From: Cyanobacteria bacterium FACHB-DQ100
Lineage (GTDB): Bacteria > Cyanobacteriota > Cyanobacteriia > Leptolyngbyales > Leptolyngbyaceae
Direction of reading: 5' to 3'
Assembly: GCA_014695195.1 (NCBI GenBank)
Contig: JACJNW010000032.1
Span: 186,001-250,000, forward strand
Length of the DNA stretch: 64,000 nt
This document shows, piece by piece, positions 18,121 to 56,704 of this stretch; the stretch's first letter is position 1, and every line of letters begins with the position of its first letter. The notes beneath the pieces were generated by a model that saw only the letters and a list, made by a program, of their open reading frames with translations, made no database searches and was not told where the DNA came from. A program made the position numbers and the translations under genes.

Positions 18121-18219
18121 AGGATGCACCAAGTTCTGCTGTGGTAGAAATTCTGTGGCTTGAAAAAGCTGCCCATCTGGAGAGATGGCCGAGTGGTTTA
18201 AGGCGCAGCACTGGAAATG
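18121..18219 (+). pseudogene. Promoter and 5' half of tRNA-Ser(GGA): left attachment site
   Basis: Bases 18179-18219 equal the first 41 bases of the intact tRNA-Ser at 56461, through the anticodon arm (CTGGAAATG). After that the sequence differs, so no tRNA can be made. The 58 upstream bases are also duplicated: 96 of 99 positions match 56403-56501. All three mismatches fall in the -10 area (TGTGGTAGAAA here, TATAGTATAAA there). I read it as attL of a tyrosine-recombinase element. Confidence 0.85.
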
Positions 18220-18505
18220 GTTTGAAGGAATTGACTCTACAAGGATTCCAAGAACGATTTAGCCATAATTTAGACATTAGAGGAATACAGGAATAGAGGA
18301 AAGCAAGCTTAACATTGCTTCTTTTTTGCTATTTAGGCAAAGCTCTTTCACTTTTAACAAGCCGCTAAGACAGCAGGAATTTTCTAAAGTTGATCGTGAT
18401 CTTGACTTAATTTATTTACTTTAGAGATTTTTGTTTCTAAAGCTGAGGAAGTTTCCTTCTAAAATCTGCTCAACGAAAGAAGTTGCTGCTCAATCTAAAT
18501 TTAAT

Positions 18506-25439: not shown

Positions 25440-25700
25440 CTAGTCAAAAACTAGTCAAAAAAGTCAGAGTTGTCGATTTAGTTAAATACAAAAGCTTTAT
25501 AACAAACACTTTGTTTAGATTTTCTATCTCACTTTTTTCTAAATCCTCATAGAATTTAGGGATAGACACAATTTGTTTCTTTCGTAACGCATTTGATTCA
25601 ATTTGATCTTAAAAGACACTTTTTGCTTCTTGTTTCTTGTGTCATTTTGAAATAAATTGCTTTACAATGAATTAAATAGAAACAGTTTGTGTCTGTTTGA
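25440..25700. promoter_or_regulatory. Repeat-rich region upstream of parM-like gene: possible centromere/operator
   Basis: AGACACAATTTGTTTC (about 25564-25579) and GAAACAGTTTGTGTCT (about 25680-25695) are near-perfect complements, and related TTGTTTCTTGTGTC and AACACTTTGTTTAG motifs lie between and before them. In type II plasmid partition systems parC repeats sit just upstream of parM and also serve as the operator. That role is inferred from position. Confidence 0.5.
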
Positions 25701-25725
25701 AGAAAGTAATAAAAAGGTGAAAAAT

Positions 25726-26790
25726 ATGGTTCAAGCAGTTGAGATTATTGAGTTAATCAAGAAGCATCCAACAAAGGTTTTTTCATTTGGTTTCGATATT
25801 GGAAATCTTCACGGGAGAATCCAATGGGGTAAGAAAAAAAGTGAGAGACAAATTTGTGCAAGCTATGTTTTAGAAATTGAGGAAGATAAAAGCTTTCCTG
25901 GAATGTATAAGTGTTTAACTAGTACAGCGAGCCATAAATATGTGAATAAGTGCTGGTTAACTGGAGCTGAAGCGTTAGATGTTAATCAACGTGCGGGGAG
26001 CTGGGTAAAGAATGACAACGTTGGGAAGGCTGAGCTAGCATTTCCAATTTTTGCTCATCTTGCTTGGGATGAGATTGAAGCAGAGAATACTGTTCTGAAC
26101 GTGGCACTGTCCGTACACGATCCTGCGGCTTTGAAAAAACAAGCCAAGGCTAATTTAGAAGGAATTCACGAAGTTGAGAAAGATGGTGTTGTTAAGAAAT
26201 TTGAGATTAAGGTACTTGCAGTTTATGCAGAAGGAATTGGTGTAATTCGAGGTGAGAAAGCCAAGAAGCTCTCATTCTTATTTGACTTAGGTTCCAATAC
26301 TTTAATTGGGAGCGCTTTTGTTGGTTATGAATCAAGATGCGAACCTTGGTATGGGGAGTTTATCGCTGGAAATCAATTGATTACAAATATTGCTTCTTGC
26401 TCCAAGATCTCCGAAATCTTAAAAAGAAAGCCGACTTTTGAGGAAGTTAGACAATGTTTAGAAAATCCTGTTGCGGAAACGAAAGTAAATAAAAAAGGCG
26501 AGAGCAGAAATATTAGCAAATATAAGATCGCTGGCAAGGATATCACAGAGGTTGTAAACTGCGAAGCTGAGAAATGGCTAAAAGAAGGGTTGAATGATTT
26601 GGAAGGAATGCACCGAAAGAACATTGTTGAGTCTCAAGACAAAATCGCGACTGGCGGTTGCTGCCTGATTCCTAAAGTCAAGGAGATCTTACAGGCTAGA
26701 GGATATCGGATCGCTGCTGAACCTCTTTGGAGTAATGTCAACGGTCTATTTGAAATTGCCGAAACATTAACCAAAAAAGTAGGAGGTTAA
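25726..26790 (+). CDS. ParM/Alp-like actin-family ATPase for DNA segregation
   Basis: 354 residues. The actin-fold nucleotide motifs are visible: phosphate 1 FGFDIGNLHGR (Asp24), phosphate 2 FLFDLGSNTL (about 187) and the adenosine motif TGGCCLIPKVKEIL followed by AEPLWSNVNGLFEIA. In plasmids such proteins polymerise and push sister copies apart. AGGTGA lies before the ATG chosen here; the longer frame (from 25657) has no ribosome site. A small gene follows after 3 bases with a strong GGAGG site, as in parM-parR operons. This points to a plasmid origin or an extrachromosomal phase of the island. Confidence 0.75.
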   Translation: MVQAVEIIELIKKHPTKVFSFGFDIGNLHGRIQWGKKKSERQICASYVLEIEEDKSFPGMYKCLTSTASHKYVNKCWLTGAEALDVNQRAGSWVKNDNVGKAELAFPIFAHLAWDEIEAENTVLNVALSVHDPAALKKQAKANLEGIHEVEKDGVVKKFEIKVLAVYAEGIGVIRGEKAKKLSFLFDLGSNTLIGSAFVGYESRCEPWYGEFIAGNQLITNIASCSKISEILKRKPTFEEVRQCLENPVAETKVNKKGESRNISKYKIAGKDITEVVNCEAEKWLKEGLNDLEGMHRKNIVESQDKIATGGCCLIPKVKEILQARGYRIAAEPLWSNVNGLFEIAETLTKKVGG

Positions 26791-35887: not shown

Positions 35888-36556
35888 ATGAAGAAAACAA
35901 TTCTTTTATCTGCGATCGCATCTCTGATAATTAGTCCTGCTGCGATTGCTCAATCTCGCACTCCTGCTACAATCCTTTCTGTGGGAGATGGAGACACCGT
36001 CCGAGTCAAAGAGGGCAACAGAACTGTGACTGTTCGATTATCCTGCATTGATGCACCAGAAATGGCGCAGCGCCCTTATGGAGAGGGAGCATCAGCAAGA
36101 CTCAAACAACTCTTGCCAGTGGGTCAATCAGTGCAATTGAGGACAATCACTATAGACAGATATGGTCGGAAAGTTGCTGAAGTTTTCAAAGGTGAGCAAT
36201 CAATCAATTTAGCAATGGTTGCAGAGGGACAAGCTGCTGCATATCGGCAGTATTTGAGTGGTTGCAACGCGGATCAATATTTGAAGGCTGAGGCTCGTGC
36301 GAAAAGTCAACGGTTAGGATTCTGGAATCAATCAAGACCAGTCATGCCTTGGGATTTTCGCAGAGGTGGGCAACGTGCTACTTCTAAAACAGTGGCTCAA
36401 CCTTCAAATAACTTTCCTGCTTGTGTGAATAGTGATTGCGATTGCAGTGACTTTAAAACTCAAGCTGAGGCTCAACGAGTTCTAGTTGCTTTTCCTGGCG
36501 ATCCATTTAGGTTAGATGGGGACAAGAATGGCAGAGCTTGTGAGAGGTTGCCTTGA
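35888..36556 (+). CDS. Secreted thermonuclease (SNase) with Excalibur domain
   Basis: 222 residues. Signal peptide (ILLSAIASLIISPAAIA), then a staphylococcal-nuclease-type domain (about 26-150): VGDGDTVRV, VRLSCIDAPEM with a catalytic-site Asp, and DRYGRKVAEV. The C-terminal part (about 178-222) is an Excalibur calcium motif (DCSDFKTQAEAQ ... DGDKNGRACE). It should cleave DNA or RNA outside the cytoplasm with calcium. It follows the Excalibur lipoprotein by 48 bases in the same direction, probably one operon. Confidence 0.9.
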   Translation: MKKTILLSAIASLIISPAAIAQSRTPATILSVGDGDTVRVKEGNRTVTVRLSCIDAPEMAQRPYGEGASARLKQLLPVGQSVQLRTITIDRYGRKVAEVFKGEQSINLAMVAEGQAAAYRQYLSGCNADQYLKAEARAKSQRLGFWNQSRPVMPWDFRRGGQRATSKTVAQPSNNFPACVNSDCDCSDFKTQAEAQRVLVAFPGDPFRLDGDKNGRACERLP

Positions 36557-38942: not shown

Positions 38943-41132
38943 TTAAATTCCTGGTAATGCCAATTGCTCTTCTTCAGCCCCCAAATCTCGTTTAGGAACA
39001 CGCTTAAATACAAAGGAGAAGGTATCTCCACTGCTAATCACCTGGGTCATCTCCTCATACATTGGGTAGTGACCACTTCCACTAAGTGTTGCCCATCCCC
39101 TAGAACGGGTTAACGCAGTGAAGACCTGGTTTCGGAGAGTTATATTGCTCTCGTCCTTAGCTACTTGGTCGAAGCCCACAACATAAACTACATCAGCTTC
39201 ATTACCCTTAGCTCTGTGAATCCGAGATACAGTCACCGCTCCTTCACACCAAAATTTATTTGGATCAATATTGGGATATCTGGGCTTGAGAACATTCGCC
39301 GTGAGCGCACTGGGAATAAAGATGTTTAATCCTTGCTTCATTAAGAAGCCTGCTACGTGATTTTCTAATTCCATAGCCTCGAAAGTAGAACCCAGCACAA
39401 CAACTAGGATGTTGCGGCTAGGCTGCAGCCCCTCATTCTTCAAGTTGCTATGAATGTTTGCAGCAAGAGCGCTTAATTCTTCTTGCCGAGAGTGATAAGT
39501 TTGAAACTCCAGAACTGGTCCTCCCCAGAGGTAGGGAATAAGGTTGGGAGAATTTTCTGGAGGACGATGAATTGTGACTTGCTGACCTGGAATAAATTTA
39601 CCTGTTACCTTGTAACCGATCGCATTCCAGTCTTTTTGTGTTGTTAATCCAGACAGCATTCCATCAGGGCGCAGTAACCCCATTCCAATAGCATGAGCAG
39701 ATGTCAAAATTGAGCCAGGAGTCCGATAGCATCGGTGCATAATTTCACTCTTTTTAATGCCACCAGCATGTGCTCCTGTCACAAGGTTGGTCAACTTCTC
39801 TCCCAGCAATTCCTTGGCTTGGGGAATCTTGAGATTGTCTAGACTCTGCGCTTCATCATACGCCCAAATAAGTCTGCGTTGTTCTGGTTGAGCTGGATCA
39901 ACAGGGTGCAGAGTTTGGTAAGCCATCCAGTAAAAAGGCTGCTTTCCTTCAATTTTCAGGTCATCATCAACAACTAAATCTTGTCCCTCATCAATTAAGA
40001 TGGCATCAAATATTGGCTTGATCTCTACAGTTTCTAGTAAAGTTCGACATACATCTGCGAGAGCCTCATTCGGTTTCTTCCTGTCACTGTTTAAGGGGGT
40101 TAAACGTTTGACATTATGTGCTTTACAGATCTCTCCATAGAGTCCGGCTTGGTCTTTAGCTCCCCAAGCATGTAATACTCTGAGTTTAGAAGTGTTGGAG
40201 TCATATTGAACGTCTCCTCCACTAAAATGCCGTAACCATTTGTCTACCTGCTCAATGATCTGACTATACAAGCTGCGTGTGAAGAAGACCAAAGCAATAT
40301 TCCAATCAGGGTGCTTCAAGTGCATATGTGCAGCTTTTTGGCACAGCAACACGGTCTTGCCAGAACCAGCAATCCCACGAATTCTCTGCGGGCCAGGAGG
40401 AATCTCTTTACCAATATGCTCCTGTTGTAAATCGAGATCATACAGCTTTTCGCGCAATGTGCTGACAACACTGGAGCGGGTTTTTTCAAGAGTAATTGTT
40501 GTGTAGGTAGGTTTTCGATAAACTGGAGTGCCAGCCAAAACTCCAAGCAGCAACTCCCATTGCTCAGTATCTAGAGCTTTTCCTGTCATAAGTGGAGGAG
40601 TATGCTGAATACGCCTCAATATACTGACATCTCCCAAGTCGTTCTTGAAGAGAATAGGTGGACAACTAGGCAGTCGATCCAAACCTTTTTGCTGCCACTC
40701 CTTCTCAGTAATTAGCGGGAGTGCCACTAAAGCTCTTCCATAGACTTGGCGACGAATACCAGGTTCTCGATCGCAATACCCTAGAATTGAAAAGAGTTGA
40801 TTTTCAGCTTGTTGGTAAGGGTTGCCTTGAGACTGGTAGAAATTCTGGAATTGCCACTGATGCCCGTTAATAGCTGAGATTTGATCGATTGTGATTGATT
40901 TCACCTCAATCACCGTTAACCCCAACTCAAAATCAGCAATTAAAATATCCGGCTCTTTTCGTGTTTCTCCTGTATTAGAGAAGATGGGGTATCTCCAATA
41001 TGCAATACAGTCACGACTGGAAAAAGCACTGCGAACAGCATCCCAAACTTGTTGTTCAGCTTTTTCTCCGTTCTTATTGAGCGGTTCAGTCGTAATGAAT
41101 TTACGTCCTTGATCCCCATCATTAACAGGCAT
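38943..41132 (-). CDS. NERD nuclease - UvrD/REP-like helicase fusion
   Basis: About 729 residues. The N-terminal NERD-type PD-(D/E)xK domain has GEKAEQQVW, then EPDILIADFELGLTVIEVKS with the Asp and Glu-x-Lys. The SF1 helicase part has Walker A GIAGSGKTVLL (about 250), Walker B ILIDEGQDL (about 376), a late SRIHRAKGNEADVVYVVG motif (motif V) and motif VI FTALTRSRGWATLSG. Nuclease-helicase fusions of this kind are frequent in defence islands and in mobile elements. I start at the ATG at 41132; a GTG 18 bases earlier is possible. It stands alone. Confidence 0.88.
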   Translation of the reverse strand: MPVNDGDQGRKFITTEPLNKNGEKAEQQVWDAVRSAFSSRDCIAYWRYPIFSNTGETRKEPDILIADFELGLTVIEVKSITIDQISAINGHQWQFQNFYQSQGNPYQQAENQLFSILGYCDREPGIRRQVYGRALVALPLITEKEWQQKGLDRLPSCPPILFKNDLGDVSILRRIQHTPPLMTGKALDTEQWELLLGVLAGTPVYRKPTYTTITLEKTRSSVVSTLREKLYDLDLQQEHIGKEIPPGPQRIRGIAGSGKTVLLCQKAAHMHLKHPDWNIALVFFTRSLYSQIIEQVDKWLRHFSGGDVQYDSNTSKLRVLHAWGAKDQAGLYGEICKAHNVKRLTPLNSDRKKPNEALADVCRTLLETVEIKPIFDAILIDEGQDLVVDDDLKIEGKQPFYWMAYQTLHPVDPAQPEQRRLIWAYDEAQSLDNLKIPQAKELLGEKLTNLVTGAHAGGIKKSEIMHRCYRTPGSILTSAHAIGMGLLRPDGMLSGLTTQKDWNAIGYKVTGKFIPGQQVTIHRPPENSPNLIPYLWGGPVLEFQTYHSRQEELSALAANIHSNLKNEGLQPSRNILVVVLGSTFEAMELENHVAGFLMKQGLNIFIPSALTANVLKPRYPNIDPNKFWCEGAVTVSRIHRAKGNEADVVYVVGFDQVAKDESNITLRNQVFTALTRSRGWATLSGSGHYPMYEEMTQVISSGDTFSFVFKRVPKRDLGAEEEQLALPGI

Positions 41133-41224
41133 AAAACTACTACCACACACTTATTCCGGTAGTGTGACAGATTTAACCTCAATTGGCACGCGAATTTTTA
41201 TTACTTTCATTTATATCTGGAAAA

Positions 41225-45465: not shown

Positions 45466-47913
45466 ATGACTATTTCGACATTATCCTCCACTAAAGACGT
45501 TGGGGAGCAGGTTAATCCTGCGAATTATGCCTCTATTATGGTGTGTTTTGGAGCTAATGAGAAGGTAATCGATAAAAGTGGCACTACTCAATTAAGTCAT
45601 TCGGACGCTTTTTCTAAAAAATCTGGAACGGTTAGAGATTTAGCGATTCATATTTACAAGGGTCATCCTTGGATGCCTGCAATCTTAGATAGAGGTCAAC
45701 CTCGTAAGAAAGAGTATGCCAATTACGCAGAACTAGTGGCGTTGGATTTTGACTCTGAAGTTACGATCGATGAAATTAAATCCCATCCATTTGTTAAAGA
45801 GTTTTGCTGCCTTGGAATAGAATCTGCAAGCAGCACTCCAGAAAACAATAAATTCCGTTTAGTCTTCAGATATAACATCCCAGTACAAGACTGGCAGAAC
45901 ATCGAGATCGGTCAACAATATTTAATGAGCCTGTTCCCCCAAGCGGATCAATCCTGCAAAGATGCTTCCAGATTCTTCTTTGGAGCCAAGGGTAAAGATC
46001 CATTTATTAAAAACTGGAACGTTGCGCTTCCTGAAGACTTTATGGAAGAAGCGATTAACCGGAAAGAAGCTCAAGAAACGAGTATTAGTGCTGAAGAATT
46101 AAAGCAAGCGCGACTAACTGAAGAAGAATATGGATTCAATGCTGACACCAATCAAGCGATTGAGACTGTACGGGAAGCATTGAAATATATCCCAGGCAGA
46201 GGTAATGCGGGAAGTGGCCGCTACCCAGAATGCCTAAAGATTATGGTCTGTCTGAAGGCGGCATTTGGGGAAGCTACAGCAAAAGAGTTAATTGAAGAAT
46301 GGTCGCCCACTGATATTTGCAACGGTTGGAATGTCTCAAAAAGATTAGCCAGTCTTGCCGCTACTTCAAAGGGATCTGAAGTTGGCTTCATTGTAAATCG
46401 AGCAAAAGAATACGGCTTCAAACCTAAATCAAGTAAGAAAACAGTTGGAGCAGTCAATTCAGCTTTAGAGGATCTAGCTAAGTCTGACTTCAAAGGGTTC
46501 TCAGATAAAGTATCTAAAGGTTTGGAGCAAGCCAAGGAGGAGGAAAAACAAGAGTACAAAATAGAGGTACTGACTGTTTCTCTGAAGCACCACTCCAAAT
46601 TTCAGGTGAAGCAGGTGATTAAGTCAATCAACTTTCAAGCGAATGAAGAGACAAAGTTAGAAGATTTTTTGATGTCGATCGCTTCTGAAATCTCTAAAGG
46701 AATGAGGGAAGCTAAACAAATCAAGGAGTTATGCAGCCTTAGCGGTCATTACATCTGGCTAAGTCTGGAAGAAGACAAGATTTTCTATGACTTCGCTAAC
46801 CTGATTCATACCTTTGGGGATCGATTAAAGTACAACACCTTTAAAAAGCAAGTTGAACTCGATGGCGAATTCTTTGAGGTGGGGACTGCTAAAACTCAAA
46901 TCACGATCAAACATAATTTCGTGGCGAGAAGTAAAACAGAGTTTCCAGATATCTTCTTGATAGCGGCAAAAGAAAACTCCTACAGCCCGTTGGTTGATTA
47001 TCTTGATTCAGTTCATCAGAAGTATGGCAAGTCAACTGAAATCTTGGAAGGAATGGCAAAGCGCTATTTTGGTCAGGATTTAGAGATTTACAATCAAATG
47101 CTGAAGAAAACTCTGATCAGCGCAGTAGCTAGAGCTTACAAGCCTGGATGTAAAGTGGATACTGCTTTGATCCTGCAAGGTAAGCAAGGTTTCAGAAAAT
47201 CTACATTCTTCAAGGTTCTGGCAGGTGGAGATGAATACTTTGAAGATTCATTCAACGGAGTAGGTCAGAAAGATGAAATCCTTAAGATCCATCAAGCTTG
47301 GTTTTCTGAATGGGCTGAATTAGAAACAGTCTTCAAAAGAAAAGAAGTTGCGGCAGTAAAAGCGTTTCTAACCTCATCCACCGATAATCTCCGCCCTCCC
47401 TATGGACGGGACATTATTGCAATGCCCAGAGGAGGAGTAATTTGCGGAACAACTAATGAATCTGAGTTTCTCAGTGACTCTACAGGAAACCGACGATTCT
47501 GGCCGATCCCAGTTTTACAGAAAATTCCAACTGATTTACTGGAGCAGGAGCGAGATCAAATCTGGGGAGCGGTGGTTGAACTTTATAAACAAGGTGAAAT
47601 TTGGTACTTAACCGATGAGGAAGAGGAACAAGTTAAAGAGTTAAGTCAGGAATTCCAAAGTAGCGATGTTTGGGACAATCATGTTGAGCAGTACATGGAA
47701 GAAAATGAATTTATTCAAATCCCAGAGCTTTTAGAGTCGATCGGTATCGATATTGCAAGACAATCTAAAGCTGAGCAAATGAGAGTTTCAAACATTCTGA
47801 AAAGAAAAGGTTGTATTCAGGAGAGAAGAAACAGAGACGGAAAAAGGATTAGAGGTTGGGTTAGTCCAAACGCAAAGCAAAACGACGATCCCCTAGCAGA
47901 TTGCCCCTTCTAA
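45466..47913 (+). CDS. VapE-type primase-helicase replication protein
   Basis: 815 residues. The N-terminal ~190 residues look like a primase-polymerase-type domain: ELVALDFDSEVT (DxD acidic pair), FCCLGIESASSTPENNKFRLVFRY and DASRFFFGAKGKDPF. A linker region (200-380) follows. The C-terminal VapE/SF3-like ATPase has Walker A LQGKQGFRKSTFF (about 570), AWFSEWAELE, KAFLTSSTDNLRPPYGR and ICGTTNESEFLSDSTGNRRFWPI. Such proteins start replication of plasmids and phage satellites. A terminator and iteron-like repeats follow at once, suggesting that the origin is next to it. Confidence 0.88.
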   Translation: MTISTLSSTKDVGEQVNPANYASIMVCFGANEKVIDKSGTTQLSHSDAFSKKSGTVRDLAIHIYKGHPWMPAILDRGQPRKKEYANYAELVALDFDSEVTIDEIKSHPFVKEFCCLGIESASSTPENNKFRLVFRYNIPVQDWQNIEIGQQYLMSLFPQADQSCKDASRFFFGAKGKDPFIKNWNVALPEDFMEEAINRKEAQETSISAEELKQARLTEEEYGFNADTNQAIETVREALKYIPGRGNAGSGRYPECLKIMVCLKAAFGEATAKELIEEWSPTDICNGWNVSKRLASLAATSKGSEVGFIVNRAKEYGFKPKSSKKTVGAVNSALEDLAKSDFKGFSDKVSKGLEQAKEEEKQEYKIEVLTVSLKHHSKFQVKQVIKSINFQANEETKLEDFLMSIASEISKGMREAKQIKELCSLSGHYIWLSLEEDKIFYDFANLIHTFGDRLKYNTFKKQVELDGEFFEVGTAKTQITIKHNFVARSKTEFPDIFLIAAKENSYSPLVDYLDSVHQKYGKSTEILEGMAKRYFGQDLEIYNQMLKKTLISAVARAYKPGCKVDTALILQGKQGFRKSTFFKVLAGGDEYFEDSFNGVGQKDEILKIHQAWFSEWAELETVFKRKEVAAVKAFLTSSTDNLRPPYGRDIIAMPRGGVICGTTNESEFLSDSTGNRRFWPIPVLQKIPTDLLEQERDQIWGAVVELYKQGEIWYLTDEEEEQVKELSQEFQSSDVWDNHVEQYMEENEFIQIPELLESIGIDIARQSKAEQMRVSNILKRKGCIQERRNRDGKRIRGWVSPNAKQNDDPLADCPF

Positions 47914-47970: not shown

Positions 47971-48434
47971 CGGGACAACCTCATCCTGTAAAAGTTGTCC
48001 CAAACTTCAATTTCTTGTATATCAAGCGGTTCAGCCTGTTTTGTGACTTTGACAGACTGTTTTTTTGGGACAACCGGGACAACCTGGGACAACCTTTTGC
48101 GGAGAGGTTGTCCCGGCCTCAATCCCTTGTATATCAGGCGCTTCCGCCTGACCTGGACAACCTGGACAACCTTTTTCTATAAAAGTTCATTTTTTTGAAA
48201 TATAAACTAAAGTTATCTAAATTTAAAATTTATAAATCTAAAATTATGATTTTAGATCCGCCGACACTCAACTGGCTGTAAATTGATAGAAATTGAAAGT
48301 TTGGCGCAAAAGGTTGTCCAGGTTGTCCGACTGCTCGGAATTCTTGCAGTGTAAGGAGTTGAGCCTGGACAACCTCAAGTAAAAGGTCGGTCAGGGGTTG
48401 TCCATCAAGTTGTCCAGGTTGTCCAAGTTGTCTC
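47971..48434. repeat. GGTTGTCC iteron cluster: possible replication origin or centromere
   Basis: About 14 copies of GGACAACC or its complement lie in two groups: 47973-48171 and 48312-48433. Several are 9-10 bp apart, for example GGGACAACC three times in a row from 48067. Inside the left group a longer block is repeated (TTGTATATCAAGCGGTTCAG near 48014 and its variant near 48127). The cluster lies directly after the primase-helicase gene and before a ribbon-helix-helix gene. Short ORFs across it owe their GQPGQ and TTWTTW runs to the repeat itself. Confidence 0.8.
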
Positions 48435-49772: not shown

Positions 49773-51659
49773 TTAAGAAGCTTCCTGGTTCCCAAAATAC
49801 GGAGGTTGCCTTCTAACAGGTCTTCCGCAAATCAAATCATTTAGCTGCTCTACAGACAATGAGCTAAGTCGATGTCGATTTCTTTCAGCAAAAGCAAGTT
49901 CAAGATCCTGAATCACTTGCACAAGTCGCTCTAGAGTTGTGACTCGATAATAACCGCCAATCTCAGGCTGAATATAAGAAATATCCGCTCCTTCTGGAAA
50001 AACAATGATTCCGTAAACTCCAATTCTTCCACCCGCTCTGCTTAATTGCACTCGATCCATCATTGAATCTGTGTAGCCAACAACCTGCATATAAGGATTT
50101 TCGCGACTTGCGCCTCTAACAGAAAGATCTCTACCTGCTGGTGTTCTGCAAGTCCATTGCGTATTTCGCACATCTCCTTCAGCCAAGATTTTGCCTACGT
50201 AGTACTTAACCTCAACAATAAACACGCAAGATTGACCAATAACTATGAAATCAGTGAGTTGGCGCGATCGCCTCCCTTGACCTACATCAAATTGAGAACG
50301 AAGTCGCCATTGTCTTGCTTGATATCTCCGGCTGCCTTCCAAGCATTTTTGAATAGTGCGCTCAAACTCATTGAGGAAATCATTTAATTCTTCTTCTTGA
50401 CGCAGAGTAGCAATTTGTTCTTCTAGCAGACGAATATCCTCAGCATCTCGACATTCTTTTGCTTTTAACTGATTAATGGTCTGCTCCGCTTCCTGTAGTT
50501 TTAGATTTGCTTGCCGCTCCCGCTGTTTTAACTTCTCGGCTTGTGTTTTCAGAAAGGTTGTCTGTTGCTCTGTTTCTGATTGAAGATCCTCGACCTGATG
50601 TTTATAGTTTTGACTTTGCTCTTCAATAATTGTGTTACGTCGCTTAATTGCTTCTAGTTCTTGCTTCAGCTTGTTTACTAAATCATTGTTTTGTTGATTC
50701 TGTGATTGCTGTATTTGCTGTTGAAGAGTTTCGATCGTTTGTTGATTTTTCTGATTCTCCTCTTGCAACACCGAATAAGTTTTCCTTAGAGCCTCATCCT
50801 TGTGGTTCTGTGCAAGCTGATTTTCAAGATATTCAATTATTTGCTTGCTTGCTTGACTTTCTTGTTGCAGATCAGCTTTCAATTTCTCAACAAATTGTTC
50901 CTTCTCAGCAATGAGACAAGATATTTGAGATAACTGCTCTTTCCCTTGCAGGCGCGATTGCTCTAATTGGTCAAGGAGTTGACGCTTTTGTATCCGCTTC
51001 TGTTTATGGATTCGCTCAATATAAATAAAAGCTGCCAGTCCAGCGAATCCAAATAGTCCTAATGCCAGAGAGTAATATTTCTGCGCTCCACTATCCGATA
51101 ACAAACTACCTGGAAGTCGGTTTATCCATTTCGGATATTCTGTCCAAAACTCTGGAGATATGCCTCGAACATAGTAAACCCGCCCAATGATTTCTCCTGA
51201 GTTAATTCTTCCAGTTGTTAGCCAGGTAGATTGACGATTACTCATCATCTCCGTTTCTGTAACTACTGGAGGTGGATTTCGTAAAATACTGTAAGGCGCT
51301 TCTGCGAGTTTCTCAACTGTTAGTTGTTGCTTCCATTCTCGATTTGAGTTAGTAGAGTATAGCATCTGTTGACCGGGACAGTTTGTTTCCAGAGTGATGC
51401 AATTTGTAACAACCATCCCGAATAATCCATAATTGCTATCAAGAGTTCGTTGAACCTCCTCAGTGTTATTTTCTATGAGTGCTAAAGACAGCTTTGTTGG
51501 CAGTGTGTGCTTCAGGATATTGAAGTCAGTTGTCTGTACTCGCAGGATCGTACCGTTCCAATAACCTTGATGGTTTGCCCAGTTCGTCACTGTAGTAGCG
51601 CAAAAACTTGCAAGACCAATAATTCCAAACCGTCCAACAGAACCTAGAAGATGTTTCAT
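49773..51659 (-). CDS. Membrane-anchored protein with external sensor region, coiled coil and NERD nuclease domain
   Basis: 628 residues. TM1 about 8-26 (GIIGLASFCATTVT), an extracytoplasmic region 27-195 with two Cys (NCITLETNCPG), TM2 about 196-214 (LALGLFGFAGLAAFIYI), a very Gln/Glu/Lys-rich coiled coil 215-425, and a C-terminal NERD domain about 430-600: LTDFIVIGQSCVFIVEVKYYVG with the Asp and Glu-x-Lys of PD-(D/E)xK nucleases, then QVVGYTDSM and YGIIVFPEGAD. GGAG lies just before the ATG. It looks like a sensor that could release or switch on a cytoplasmic nuclease. I know no named system with this exact layout. Confidence 0.78.
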   Translation of the reverse strand: MKHLLGSVGRFGIIGLASFCATTVTNWANHQGYWNGTILRVQTTDFNILKHTLPTKLSLALIENNTEEVQRTLDSNYGLFGMVVTNCITLETNCPGQQMLYSTNSNREWKQQLTVEKLAEAPYSILRNPPPVVTETEMMSNRQSTWLTTGRINSGEIIGRVYYVRGISPEFWTEYPKWINRLPGSLLSDSGAQKYYSLALGLFGFAGLAAFIYIERIHKQKRIQKRQLLDQLEQSRLQGKEQLSQISCLIAEKEQFVEKLKADLQQESQASKQIIEYLENQLAQNHKDEALRKTYSVLQEENQKNQQTIETLQQQIQQSQNQQNNDLVNKLKQELEAIKRRNTIIEEQSQNYKHQVEDLQSETEQQTTFLKTQAEKLKQRERQANLKLQEAEQTINQLKAKECRDAEDIRLLEEQIATLRQEEELNDFLNEFERTIQKCLEGSRRYQARQWRLRSQFDVGQGRRSRQLTDFIVIGQSCVFIVEVKYYVGKILAEGDVRNTQWTCRTPAGRDLSVRGASRENPYMQVVGYTDSMMDRVQLSRAGGRIGVYGIIVFPEGADISYIQPEIGGYYRVTTLERLVQVIQDLELAFAERNRHRLSSLSVEQLNDLICGRPVRRQPPYFGNQEAS

Positions 51660-51746
51660 AAAGCTCCTGCAAGTTAAGTAGCGAGTAATCTCCTGAAGTT
51701 AAAAGGAGCCAAGTTAATAAACTCGACTCCCAAATGAGCTTTGAAC

Positions 51747-52787
51747 TTACACTTCTTCTGATCCAAAAGTAAGTTGAACTTCTAATGGCGTTGATCCTGG
51801 TGGAAGCATCACAGTCTTTTTATCAAGTCGTCGCCAAAACTCAGCATCCCCCAGTTGAAATTCTGAAGTTTTAATAGGTGCGATCGCACTCATATCAACT
51901 TGCACTGGTTCAACAGACTGCTCAACCTGTAATGAAGCTGGCTCAAATTGATAAGGCTGCACAACTACATCTTCAACCAATGTGGTCATTGGTGCTTTGC
52001 CAGCAGGTGCGGTAACTTCAGTTTGTTCAACCACACCTGGAGTAACTTGAGATTGAGGGGTAATTTGAATTTCTGTCACATCATCAACAGCTTGAGCGAT
52101 CGGTGCTGATTGACTTAATTGAAACCATCTAGCCTGGAACAACTGCCAATCCGTATAAGCTGTAGATTCAAAAGTTCCGTCCGCGCTCAATGAATACCAC
52201 CGGAAGTCATATTGTGCATTTCCATTAGCGTCAAAACTTTGAACAGAAGTAGTAATTGGCAGTCCCGCAGGTAAAGTTTCCAATAGCTTTCGCACTTCAT
52301 CAGCAGTCGGAATATAATCATTGCTTATCAGCAATGACCCCATATAACTGATCAATGCTGAATAACCGATTATCGAAAAATCAATAGGGCTTTTGAAGCC
52401 TCCTCTTAACTGGATTTTTGGATTGAAATCCGCAGTTAAAATACTTGGCAGATTAGATTTGTTAGGTGTAAAAGCTTGAGGCGCTTCAGTTAAAGGCGGA
52501 ATTTCCAAAGAAGGTAGAACTTCAACCAAAGGGGTTGTTTCTAAAAAAGGTGGGACGGAATCTAAATCAGTAAAAGCTGGAGCAGGTGGTGTGGGGACAG
52601 GAGCTGGATTAAAGAATTGTGCTCCCTCTGTTTGACCCTGCTGAAAGATTTCTTCAGTTGTCAATTCATTCCCTGAAGGAGCGTAGCAAATCGATGGCAC
52701 TGATTGAAAAATCAGGCGTGTTTGATCGGTTGGTGGCTGAATTGCAGCAGTGAGTTCCTGAGAAGTGCTAGAAGGTGTTGAAAACAT
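51747..52787 (-). CDS. Unrecognised Pro/Val-rich protein upstream of the membrane NERD gene
   Basis: 346 residues, no signal peptide. Pro-rich linkers (PAPVPTPPAPAF, LVEVLPSLEIPPLTEAP) flank a middle domain (about 120-220: IDFSIIGYSALISYMGSLLI, IPTADEVRKLLETLPAGLP, YDFRWYSLSADGTFES). The C-terminal third is acidic and ends in a short conserved-looking block (FWRRLDKKTVMLPPG). It lies 87 bases upstream of the NERD gene on the same strand, so co-expression is likely. Family unknown. Confidence 0.6.
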   Translation of the reverse strand: MFSTPSSTSQELTAAIQPPTDQTRLIFQSVPSICYAPSGNELTTEEIFQQGQTEGAQFFNPAPVPTPPAPAFTDLDSVPPFLETTPLVEVLPSLEIPPLTEAPQAFTPNKSNLPSILTADFNPKIQLRGGFKSPIDFSIIGYSALISYMGSLLISNDYIPTADEVRKLLETLPAGLPITTSVQSFDANGNAQYDFRWYSLSADGTFESTAYTDWQLFQARWFQLSQSAPIAQAVDDVTEIQITPQSQVTPGVVEQTEVTAPAGKAPMTTLVEDVVVQPYQFEPASLQVEQSVEPVQVDMSAIAPIKTSEFQLGDAEFWRRLDKKTVMLPPGSTPLEVQLTFGSEEV

Positions 52788-54953: not shown

Positions 54954-56159
54954 TTAGAGTTTAGGTACGTCAATCGAAGAAGCACAGCCTAAATAATGTT
55001 TAACTAAAACTTCTGGAGAATTACCAACAATCTTTGCAACGTGATGAATAGGCATTCCCGCTTCTATTGCCATTGAGATAAAGCTGTGTCTGGTGGAATA
55101 CAGATTGCGGTAATGATCCACCAGCCCTTCTTTCTCCAATTTAGTAACAATGCCATCGATCCATTTTCCCTGCTGCCTGCAACCCTTCCAACAAAGAGCG
55201 CTGAATGTATGAGTGTTGATCGCTTTACCCTTCAAACTGGGGAACAGGTAATCTTCATCTTTATTCTTCAGACTCTTTCTTCTCAAGTTGATTAGGAAAC
55301 TCTGCATTTGCTCATTGCAGGGAAACTTTCTAGATTTTCCAGTCTTAGTTCCTTTATGAATCTTGCGGCTACTAACATTGACTATTGCTTCTGAAATACT
55401 GATGAATTGAAAATTATGATCGATATGCTTCCATTTCAAAGCCACTACTTCACTTGTGCGGCATCCACTGAAGAATAGAAACCAAACAAACGGAGCATAA
55501 GATTTATAAATCTCATGTTCTGCAAAAGCTTGAATAATCACGTCTCTCTCTTCAGCAGTGAATGGATCTGGTTCTTCGTCTTGATCAATCTCGATTTCCA
55601 AAGCCATTCCTGAAAAAAGATTATGTTCGATCAATCTGCGCTTTACTGCCCAACTACAAGCAGCATTAATCTCCATCAGAAGAAACTTCGCCGTCTTCAA
55701 GCTGTTGTTTTCTAACCAATGCTGACGGATCTCTAAAGCCTCAGAAAGTTTTTTGTAAGGTAACTTTTCCAGGTGATTAGAAACGCGCCTGTAATGAGTC
55801 AGGGCCGTTGTCTTCTCAACTAATGGAGTTTTGTACTGAATGTACTTCTCCCAAATCTCAATCAAGTTCAAGGTATCGATCGCTGGTAGAGGAAATGTAG
55901 AGTGAGTTTGAGACTGCTCTGATACCACCACCTTTCTGCGGGGATCGTATTTGGCTAGAGTCGCATCAAATCTTTCATAGATAATGTCCGACTCAATTTC
56001 CTTGGCTTTGGCTTGAGCTAACTTAAGGTTCTCTTTGTCTGAATATCGCAACCCAGGCAGATTGAGATTATATGCCTTGCCTAAATAAGTCCATCTCAGT
56101 CGAATAGATCCATTGTTGTCTTGGACATTGACACTGCCTTTAGCTCTTCTGGATTGCAT
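54954..56159 (-). CDS. Tyrosine recombinase (integrase) of the island
   Basis: 401 residues from the ATG at 56159, which follows GAGG by 5 bases. A beta-rich arm-binding start (GSVNVQDNNGSIRLRWTYLGKAYN in parts), a SAM-like core-binding region (about 95-180) and the catalytic domain: Arg in FFSGCRTSEVVALKW, Lys in KTGKSRKFP, the box YSTRHSFISMAIEAG, GNSPEVLVKHYLG with the nucleophile Tyr. The usual HxxR and GH positions are YSTR and GN, changed but within family variation. It lies next to the tRNA-Ser and should catalyse integration there. Confidence 0.88.
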   Translation of the reverse strand: MQSRRAKGSVNVQDNNGSIRLRWTYLGKAYNLNLPGLRYSDKENLKLAQAKAKEIESDIIYERFDATLAKYDPRRKVVVSEQSQTHSTFPLPAIDTLNLIEIWEKYIQYKTPLVEKTTALTHYRRVSNHLEKLPYKKLSEALEIRQHWLENNSLKTAKFLLMEINAACSWAVKRRLIEHNLFSGMALEIEIDQDEEPDPFTAEERDVIIQAFAEHEIYKSYAPFVWFLFFSGCRTSEVVALKWKHIDHNFQFISISEAIVNVSSRKIHKGTKTGKSRKFPCNEQMQSFLINLRRKSLKNKDEDYLFPSLKGKAINTHTFSALCWKGCRQQGKWIDGIVTKLEKEGLVDHYRNLYSTRHSFISMAIEAGMPIHHVAKIVGNSPEVLVKHYLGCASSIDVPKL

Positions 56160-56292
56160 ACCCACCTCTAGTCAACCTATAGGTGGCTAAATCTCTTGAA
56201 ATTCCTTTTATTCTCTGATTGTATTTTTAGCCGTTATTTAGACATAAACTGATCAGGGATATTTTCTCTCGATATCGAAATAAAATTTCTTC

Positions 56293-56344
56293 AGGGAGAG
56301 AGGGATTTGAACCCTCGGATAAGTCACCCCATCACAGCATTTCC
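56293..56344 (-). pseudogene. Inverted 3' half of tRNA-Ser(GGA)
   Basis: Read on the minus strand from 56344, GGAAATGCTGTGATGGGG and the following bases match the 3' half of the intact tRNA at 56495-56547, with one difference in the T-loop (GTTCAAATC against GTTCGAATC) and a changed end. The breakpoint GGAAATG is the same as in the left attachment site. Its upstream part (TCAGCGCTTCCCC) is not tRNA. Confidence 0.85.
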
Positions 56345-56402
56345 GGGGAAGCGCTGACCCATATTTGCCTTATTTCAAGCCATTTTCAAAAAACAGATCT
56401 CA

Positions 56403-56501
56403 AGGATGCACCAAGTTCTGCTATAGTATAAATTCTGTGGCTTGAAAAAGCTGCCCATCTGGAGAGATGGCCGAGTGGTTTAAGGCGCAGCACTGGAAAT
56501 G
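56403..56501 (+). repeat. Right copy of the 99-bp attachment repeat
   Basis: This copy matches 18121-18219 except at three positions in the -10 region, where it has the better promoter (TATAGTATAAA). It forms the promoter and 5' half of the working tRNA. Confidence 0.85.
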
Positions 56502-56547
56502 CTGTGATGGGGTGACTTATCCGAGGGTTCGAATCCCTCTCTCTCCG
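56461..56547 (+). tRNA. tRNA-Ser (anticodon GGA)
   Basis: 87 nt. Acceptor stem GGAGAGA / TCTCTCC with discriminator G, D arm GCCGAGTGGTTTAAGGC, anticodon stem CAGCA / TGCTG with loop CTGGAAA (anticodon GGA at 56495-56497), a long class II variable arm (GATGGGGTGACTTATC) and T arm CGAGGGTTCGAATCCCTC. No CCA is encoded. It is the integration target of the island and is rebuilt by the island's right end. Confidence 0.97.
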
Positions 56548-56576
56548 TTCTAAAACTTTGGTGTATCACGGCTTTT

Positions 56577-56611
56577 AGAGAACCCTCGAAGTTTCGAGGG
56601 TTTCTTTTTGG
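56577..56611 (+). terminator. Terminator after tRNA-Ser
   Basis: GAACCCTCGAA and TTTCGAGGGTTTC form a strong stem followed by TTTTT, 30 bases after the tRNA end. Confidence 0.85.
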
Positions 56612-56664
56612 GCGATCGATTGGGTGACTTTGAAGGTCTTTAGACACCTTTTGACTATTAGTTG

Positions 56665-56704
56665 ACTATCCCGCGTTGAGCGGTATGGCTCAACGCGGGA
56701 TAGT
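56665..56704. repeat. Perfect 17-bp inverted repeat
   Basis: ACTATCCCGCGTTGAGC and its exact complement flank the six-base spacer GGTATG. It lies between tRNA-Ser and the M16 gene. A partial direct copy of its left shoulder (TTGACTAT) is just before it. There is no T run, so a protein-binding or recombination site is as likely as a terminator. Confidence 0.7.

Follow-up and report, generated by a model that had tools for sequence, protein, structure and literature searches.

A membrane-spanning sensor with exchangeable inside ends, among them a predicted NERD nuclease, in cyanobacteria

Receptors of modular build that end in a kinase or a cyclase are well known. LuxQ-type receptors, judged by their general features and the titles of their PDB entries, form what we take to be a PDC/Cache-like group. 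In the defence systems Kiwa and Zorya, infection is sensed by a component in the membrane, and a separate protein works inside the cell as a DNA-directed effector. The present work concerns a single protein of 628 residues in which a predicted membrane sensor is joined through a coiled coil to a NERD domain. Its gene lies in a stretch of 64,000 nucleotides from Cyanobacteria bacterium FACHB-DQ100 (contig JACJNW010000032.1, positions 186,001 to 250,000), called here the window, of which a preliminary description had been made. We give about an even chance to the reading that it is a transmembrane receptor made of one protein, in which a cue from the periplasm sets free a nuclease or toxin, defence being the probable purpose.

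Several reports touch on parts of this composition, as far as their accessible portions go. The class 14 'SMC-HicA' proteins are coiled-coil and C-terminal HicA fusions, some of them with NERD (PMC10865869). ToxM is a membrane toxin of RelE type (BECR), in which the toxin is N-terminal and co-transcribed with the antitoxin ToxR (PMC11980606). SmdA is a NERD-like membrane protein with a role in cell division that misses several conserved residues (PMC9040797), and a NERD nuclease is mentioned in a rare defence system (PMC12458937). The preliminary description knew of no system of the present composition, and our search of titles and abstracts, with most subscription journals and supplementary tables outside its scope, likewise surfaced no description of the sensor family or of its NERD form.

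Layout of the sensor, coiled coil and NERD protein

The gene and its parts, with the evidence on which each assignment is based, are as follows.

49773..51659, reverse strand: sensor, coiled coil and NERD protein, 628 residues (open reading frame, relatives, Pfam, structure model)
51585..51653, reverse strand: first membrane helix, about residues 3-25 (hydropathy; within helix 2-62 of the model)
51159..51554, reverse strand: core of the putative outside sensor of PDC/PAS-like kind, residues 36-167, as delimited by the alignment to the top-ranking structures (model pLDDT 94.0, VIA matches, conservation)
51006..51080, reverse strand: second membrane helix, about residues 194-218, with a basic stretch after it as seen by eye (hydropathy, sequence)
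50385..51005, reverse strand: coiled coil of about 210 residues, 219-425 (model helix to residue 425; coiled-coil-type structure matches over 213-428)
49995..50369, reverse strand: predicted NERD domain, residues 431-555, with E433, D470, E483, K485 and Q525 (Pfam, alignments)

Windows of 19 residues with a mean hydropathy above 1.3 start at residues 3-4 and 194-200 and leave about 170 residues between them, which bears out the two membrane segments and the outside region seen at first reading; a third peak above 1.3, starting at residue 471, is a strand of the NERD core. The full-length AlphaFold2 model (mean pLDDT 86.6, pTM 0.49) contains a helix at 193-425 with a short break at 322-324, and after residue 430 its elements run in the order helix, strands, helix, strands, helix. 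Over residues 431-555 the NERD profile PF08378 matches at E=5.4e-11, with 43.4 bits against a curated cut-off of 22.1. E433, D470, E483-x-K485 and Q525 are invariant in all 14 aligned NERD-type proteins, some of them near-copies, in an alignment that holds 20 invariant positions within 425-559 including N521-P522-Y523, and the same residues are invariant in an alignment of 11 rows. These five residues presumably occupy the catalytic-type positions of a PD-(D/E)xK nuclease. The protein has, from its sequence, a predicted NERD nuclease end with the catalytic-type residues intact, and the coiled coil of about 210 residues followed by NERD with Asp and Glu-x-Lys is upheld by the model, Pfam and the invariant residues alike. 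Sequence and profile searches of solved structures gave no convincing relative of the NERD part, and we therefore base its fold on Pfam and on the predicted order of elements. A fold search with the full-length model returned coiled-coil matches and was uninformative on both end domains. A relative matches at E=1.6e-198, beyond chance.

The outside region was modelled separately with its two helices from an alignment of 61 sequences, and this structure prediction, proposed at the outset as a check, gave a confident model (mean pLDDT 94.0, pTM 0.81) of PDC/PAS-like resemblance. VIA-align was run over the candidates of Foldseek with Z 8 taken as the bar, and nearly all of the leading rows are extracytoplasmic PDC/PAS-like sensors. 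The best row is the LapD-type structure 4u64 (Z 7.3, 88 residues, 2.6 A), followed by 3cwf (Z 7.0), LuxQ 3c30 (Z 7.0), WalK 4ywz (Z 6.7) and the LuxP-LuxQ complex 2hj9 (Z 6.7), with CitA, CusS and DcuS also among the leading rows; a PDC-type fold is, we assume, common to them. The model thereby suggests an extracytoplasmic PDC/PAS-like sensor. No viral structure matched it at E<=0.001, and no Pfam sensor family was found at E<=0.1 over residues 1-225 or over the sensor of the relatives tested. Envelope injury, once considered as the cue, found no direct support, the outside domain weakly resembling sensors that depend on a ligand or on a binding protein.

Exchangeable inside ends and patchy occurrence

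At the level of sequence comparison the sensor proves modular, one receptor front carrying several unrelated inside ends. The same sensor and coiled coil occur with NERD, HicA, Gp49/RelE-type toxin, DUF2325 or histidine-kinase ends as assigned by Pfam, which suggests a little-known family of alarm receptors. Among 58 genomes (numbered here with G, and single loci with L), 7 contain the sensor, the window's own included. The NERD end is found in the window and in G027, the HicA end in G055 (E=4.6e-15) with further HicA forms in other loci, and the histidine-kinase end in G049; a response regulator adjoins the kinase form, as seen by eye and as annotated in one record. DUF2325 is assigned just or well under its cut-off of 33.6 bits in every case, for instance at 33.1 bits in G002 and G039 and at 21.7 bits in the interrupted gene of G008.

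Toxin ends are of more than one family. Gp49 ends the protein in two genomes, G160 (E=2.9e-10) and G527 (E=5.1e-15). A RelE/ParE end is carried by a Synechococcus elongatus plasmid, at a Pfam E=3.6e-4 and 21.5 bits that fall just under the cut-off of 23; its PDB matches are Rv2866 (E=0.0018) and RelE (E=0.068), and three plasmid records, alike in length and score, contain this form. All 17 HicA-ended sequences retain the GSH histidine of HicA; several of these are near-copies of one another, and one is the downstream fragment of a gene that is interrupted. In G444 (L160:4677-7736) the order differs, in that a CHAT-nSTAND1 protein (CHAT, a protease of immune type, 2.4e-13; nSTAND1 5.1e-125) bears the sensor at its C-terminus and adjoins a DUF1822 gene. 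Sensor types outside the set used for the search model still match it strongly, with E=9.7e-57 in G160, E=5.5e-63 in G444 and a tblastn E=2e-23 in S. elongatus. The ends of L019 and L162 match no family, L138 has no inside end that we could see, and Marinobacter L086 has a sensor gene of 245 residues followed by a separate gene with a DUF2325-like stretch (by eye).

A scan of genome contigs with the sensor alignment gave 71 loci. The sensor was found in 16 of 386 genomes in a sample of the phylum, in 27 of 291 and 23 of 243 genomes in two order samples that overlap and are not independent, and in 4 of 42 genomes of the window's own order, its own included. Judged from these sequence searches, its occurrence is patchy. 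A quick tree of 81 sensor rows requires at least 10 changes among six states (NERD, HicA, DUF2325, kinase, Gp49 and RelE lumped, no end), where the minimum possible is 5; NERD alone needs 6 changes, 3 of them forced by strongly supported branches. The figure of 10 is soft, because several rows (L086, L100, L108, L102, L101, L014 and others) are long branches of unsure placement. Six rows with an unknown or missing end were excluded from the typed count. Near-copies and fragments (L088-L092, L095, L096, L017, L020, L042, L028, L084, L103-L105, L081, L044, L011) and rows covering fewer than 150 model positions were dropped beforehand, and L127-L164, found later, are absent from the tree. Nearest to the window's sensor is that of G027, also NERD-ended and 61% identical, and next in the tree comes a DUF2325-ended Elainella protein.

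The unrelated toxin ends on the same sensor and its patchy distribution both bear on whether the protein could serve cell architecture, tying the nucleoid to the membrane through a NERD domain that binds DNA without cutting it, as cautiously proposed for SmdA of Staphylococcus aureus. The long coiled coil would suit such a role, and SmdA offers a precedent as a membrane-anchored NERD-like protein with septum phenotypes, according to the accessible part of its description (PMC9040797). Distribution and toxin ends nevertheless speak against it, as do the catalytic-type residues, which are kept here, while SmdA is said in that same part to be without several of the most conserved ones (PMC9040797). 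We regard an architectural role as very improbable.

Neighbouring genes and mobile context

A partner for the sensor protein had been proposed in the gene just upstream. Both reading frames stand where they were first placed, on the same strand and 87 bp apart.

51747..52787, reverse strand: 346-residue protein of no recognised family, proposed as partner (open reading frame; not conserved with the sensor)

Relatives of this protein occur in 2 of the 58 genomes including the window's own, and the second, G003, has no sensor gene. It is probably a real gene, since a relative in another genome of the same genus is 44% identical over residues 82-273. Among the 386 cyanobacterial genomes it was matched in one, the window's own, and the plasmid, phage and viral-contig sets hold no relative. 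Family signals are weak or below cut-off (PF24225 at E=0.0099, phrog_897 at E=0.002), and NCBIfam gave no match. The role of conserved partner was rejected on these counts; as its sequence relatives indicate, the 346-residue protein is a local neighbour of the sensor gene.

A different gene recurs elsewhere. In one clade of Nostocales, all 10 distinct loci that have an intact NERD end and a 3' flank (L036, L037, L038, L039, L040, L041, L043, L078, L109, L110) encode a phosphonate-type binding lipoprotein immediately downstream, on the strand of the sensor gene; L034 and L098, which have no NERD end, L035 at a contig end, and L042 and L099, copies of L040 and L109, were excluded from this count. 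The binding protein has a C-terminal SNase domain in 8 of the 10, and an acid phosphatase of HAD type comes next in 7. A relative of the binding protein is also nearby in 3 of 7 histidine-kinase rows (L033, L079, L097/L121). The relative in G194 is a fusion with a protein kinase domain; beside it stand the sensor kinase, a response regulator (by eye) and an acid phosphatase, and an SNase lies 3 kb on. In the stretches scanned of NERD loci outside the clade (the window, L010, L021, L022, L023, L027 and L106 of a Nostoc plasmid) no binding protein was seen. G002 and G160 have a relative elsewhere in the genome, away from the sensor.

Two fusions of the same protein were also observed. In L121:4214-7060 a protein kinase is fused to the phosphonate-type binding protein directly upstream of the sensor histidine kinase, and in L081:4929-6251, an open reading frame of a Scytonema metagenome-assembled genome, the first membrane helix of the sensor is joined directly to the binding protein.

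These neighbours raise the question of a nutrient or extracellular-DNA sensor, which would read the supply of phosphate, phosphonate or nucleotides through the binding protein. Phosphorus would be released from DNA by the linked acid phosphatase and secreted nuclease, and DNA that is taken up would be processed by NERD. The three kinds of gene downstream in the Nostocales clade, their presence around the histidine-kinase form of G194 and the SNase within the window's own element are all consistent with such a role. The HicA, Gp49 and RelE ends, however, misfit scavenging unless they cause arrest, and the binding protein is missing both from the genome of the window and from the scanned HicA and DUF2325 stretches. 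Two plasmid annotations name no ABC permease beside the binding protein, although one of the two has a permease of tricarboxylate-transporter type just upstream of the sensor. On balance a nutrient sensor is, in our estimate, rather unlikely.

Small genes of one HTH_3 kind lie near seven distinct sensor loci (L034, L037, L039, L041, L110, L121, L136/L164), as judged with a profile built from five of the seven. In L164 a gap of 40 bp separates this gene from the sensor downstream of it; in the other loci the distance is about 0.8 to 4.3 kb. These seven loci have a NERD, kinase, DUF2325 or missing end and none is toxin-ended; an HTH_3 gene also lies 1.5 kb from the HicA form of L026. No antitoxin family was found in 10 neighbouring proteins of eight sensor loci, seven of them toxin-ended, the other neighbours being seen only as open reading frames.

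The window's locus lies within an insertion of about 38.2 kb in tRNA-Ser(gga), marked by a 131-nt direct repeat at 18121 and 56403 with a spacing of 38282.

18121..18228, forward strand: left end of the element, an upstream stretch and the 5' half of tRNA-Ser (direct repeat; likeness to the empty site stops at 18228)
35888..36556, forward strand: SNase of the same element, its N-terminus signal-like by eye (PF00565, E=6.4e-21)
54954..56165, reverse strand: phage-type integrase of the element (PF00589, E=2.2e-14)
56403..56669, forward strand: right end, a copy of the upstream stretch and the complete tRNA-Ser(gga) at 56460-56548 (the empty site of a relative matches to 56669)

In G007, a genome of the same genus, both flanks are contiguous around one complete tRNA-Ser next to pyrB, the left flank matching up to 18228 and the right from 56403 to 56669, and the site is therefore empty there. 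The complete tRNA is likewise beside pyrB in G004 and G006. Beyond 56669 the gene order differs from that of relatives, and the M16 peptidase gene is elsewhere. The order of pyrB and the M16 peptidase gene failed as a test of the empty site, these genes being apart in G002, G004 and G006 (same genus, few contigs); from this we conclude that the chromosome to the right of the tRNA was also rearranged. The 5' half of the tRNA is duplicated in the element along with the stretch upstream of it. Together with the 3' half, which is present in inverted form at 56296-56354, this suggests a history more complex than one insertion.

Other genes of the element include an actin-like protein at 25657-26790 (PF17989, just under cut-off) and a VapE-type replication protein at 45466-47913, genes such as an integrated plasmid or a satellite would carry. 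An imperfect inverted repeat of 50 nt with doubled GGTTGTCC at its ends, located at 48155-48328 downstream from that replication gene, is possibly an origin region. A protein of 735 residues at 38943-41150 has a C-terminus of UvrD-helicase type and an N-terminal part that is nuclease-like by eye and has no Pfam nuclease match; it is a possible second DNA-conflict gene. A functional link of the SNase to the sensor, 13 kb away in the same element, is possible.

For the NERD forms at least, carriage by mobile elements is frequent. Besides the window's element, plasmids of Nostoc MS1, Nostoc C052, Cylindrospermopsis and Calothrix carry them, and in three loci of Nodosilinea and Leptolyngbya (L021, L023, L027) the gene is flanked by a gene of portal type on one side and by genes of scaffold or capsid type on the other; PHROG matches, made on L023, are to terminase (E=2e-14), portal (E=1.1e-28) and major head protein (E=1.9e-94).

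This context invites a receptor that serves the element and not the host, for superinfection exclusion, incompatibility or plasmid stabilisation. The element at tRNA-Ser, the carriage on plasmids and the three phage-like loci between portal and capsid genes would all agree with it; the toxin ends recall addiction modules, and the small HTH_3 genes near the seven sensor loci could be regulators or antitoxins. Yet several HicA and DUF2325 forms are beside housekeeping genes, the 10 neighbouring proteins tested include no antitoxin family, and the phage and viral sets are empty of relatives. We consider a fitness gene of the mobile element improbable.

A proposed receptor and its relation to known systems

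The build of the protein, a sensor tethered to the membrane and linked by a coiled coil to a domain of nuclease type, together with its sporadic occurrence and its place on mobile DNA, fits the conflict role first suggested for it. In the receptor that we favour, a periplasmic cue would alter the outside domain, the cue being a small ligand or else, on the LuxPQ pattern, a binding protein loaded with its ligand. The alteration would pass down the coiled coil and activate the paired NERD domains of a dimer, which would then damage incoming or host DNA. In the relatives the same signal would free an RNA-cutting toxin or drive the kinase, the likely purpose of the NERD and toxin forms being defence or growth arrest. 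Ligand binding, transmission through the coiled coil, DNA cutting by NERD and a defence purpose are what we infer. Signalling across the membrane is likely because a form with kinase and response regulator exists, and a harmful output is likely because toxin ends occur. As for the cue, nucleic acid or phosphorus compounds outside the membrane are suggested by the binding protein, the secreted nuclease and the phosphatase; such a cue would agree with phage or foreign DNA just as well as with phosphorus scavenging, and for that reason we hold the defence reading evenly poised.

Several results weigh against this receptor or narrow it. The PDC/PAS-like fold is only suggestive because Z stays below 8 (best 7.3), and Foldseek with the sensor model gave no match at E<=0.001. 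The PADLOC search with the window's protein returned weak coiled-coil matches at E>=0.0025 and no system protein, and the phage records and viral contigs searched contain no relative of the sensor. No homologue of the binding protein turned up in the window's genome, and no relative of it in the scanned HicA and DUF2325 stretches. The fusion in G444 may be a broken gene, because the protein stops before the second membrane helix. Several HicA forms adjoin housekeeping genes (enolase, ribosomal-protein-S1-type) and not defence islands. In a group of Obscuribacterales type (L045-L077, L087; record titles also Melainabacteria, cyanobacterium, bacterium, and once each Actinobacteria and Proteobacteria) the sensor has no effector end that could be recognised, and in 29 of 34 loci it is followed within 320 bp by an open reading frame of one N-terminal pattern, seen by eye. 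This frame is about 1080 residues long where not cut by the contig, and encodes a SWIM-SNF2 helicase in the two tested; of the other five loci, four end at or near a contig edge and L069 has a different start. The pairing suggests another, stable role of the sensor in this group.

A wider proposal can be made tentatively, its chances somewhat short of even: an undescribed family of single-protein transmembrane immune receptors in cyanobacteria and their kin, with a conserved outside sensor, a coiled-coil lever and an exchangeable killer or two-component end. The killers would comprise the DNA nuclease, the HicA, Gp49 and RelE RNases and CHAT-STAND, and the binding protein and secreted nuclease may make periplasmic phage or foreign DNA the ligand. 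Receptors that end in a nuclease or toxin, with no antitoxin recognised, would lead directly from an outside cue to self-harm or to the destruction of DNA. As the same sensor is also carried by a histidine kinase with a response regulator, a reporter for this harmless form could find the cue that the lethal forms obey. How a toxin learns of the arrival of a phage at the envelope thus becomes testable in laboratory cyanobacteria.

With PDC/Cache-like receptors such as LuxQ with LuxP, the present proteins share two membrane helices around an outside domain, here putatively PAS-like, a signalling helix and modular ends, and part of the family has the binding protein encoded next door, as LuxQ has LuxP. 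They differ in that nuclease and toxin ends occur besides the kinase, that no Pfam sensor family matches and that the window's genome lacks the binding protein. The likeness to Kiwa and Zorya lies in membrane sensing combined with a DNA effector, whereas here one protein holds both and PADLOC matches do not go beyond weak coiled-coil ones.

The remaining comparisons concern the reports introduced at the beginning, within the same limits of their accessible text. Class 14 SMC-HicA proteins share a coiled coil with C-terminal HicA, NERD being mentioned in some (PMC10865869), whereas no SMC ATPase part was matched here and NERD and HicA are alternatives in the proteins of our set; in the accessible text of that report the words 'membrane' and 'transmembrane' were searched for and not found. 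Class 14 may nevertheless include some of our HicA forms, because the member tested, L013, matches SMC models over coiled-coil residues 207-511 only. SmdA shares the membrane-anchored NERD-like build but has one membrane helix, a short outside N-terminus and a degenerate NERD domain, in place of the two helices and the full residue set seen here (PMC9040797). ToxM likewise ties a RelE-type toxin to the inner membrane and has an outside domain, with the passage of foreign DNA as its proposed trigger; its toxin is N-terminal, its outside domain C-terminal and its antitoxin encoded upstream, whereas in the present family the toxin is C-terminal and no antitoxin was recognised (PMC11980606).

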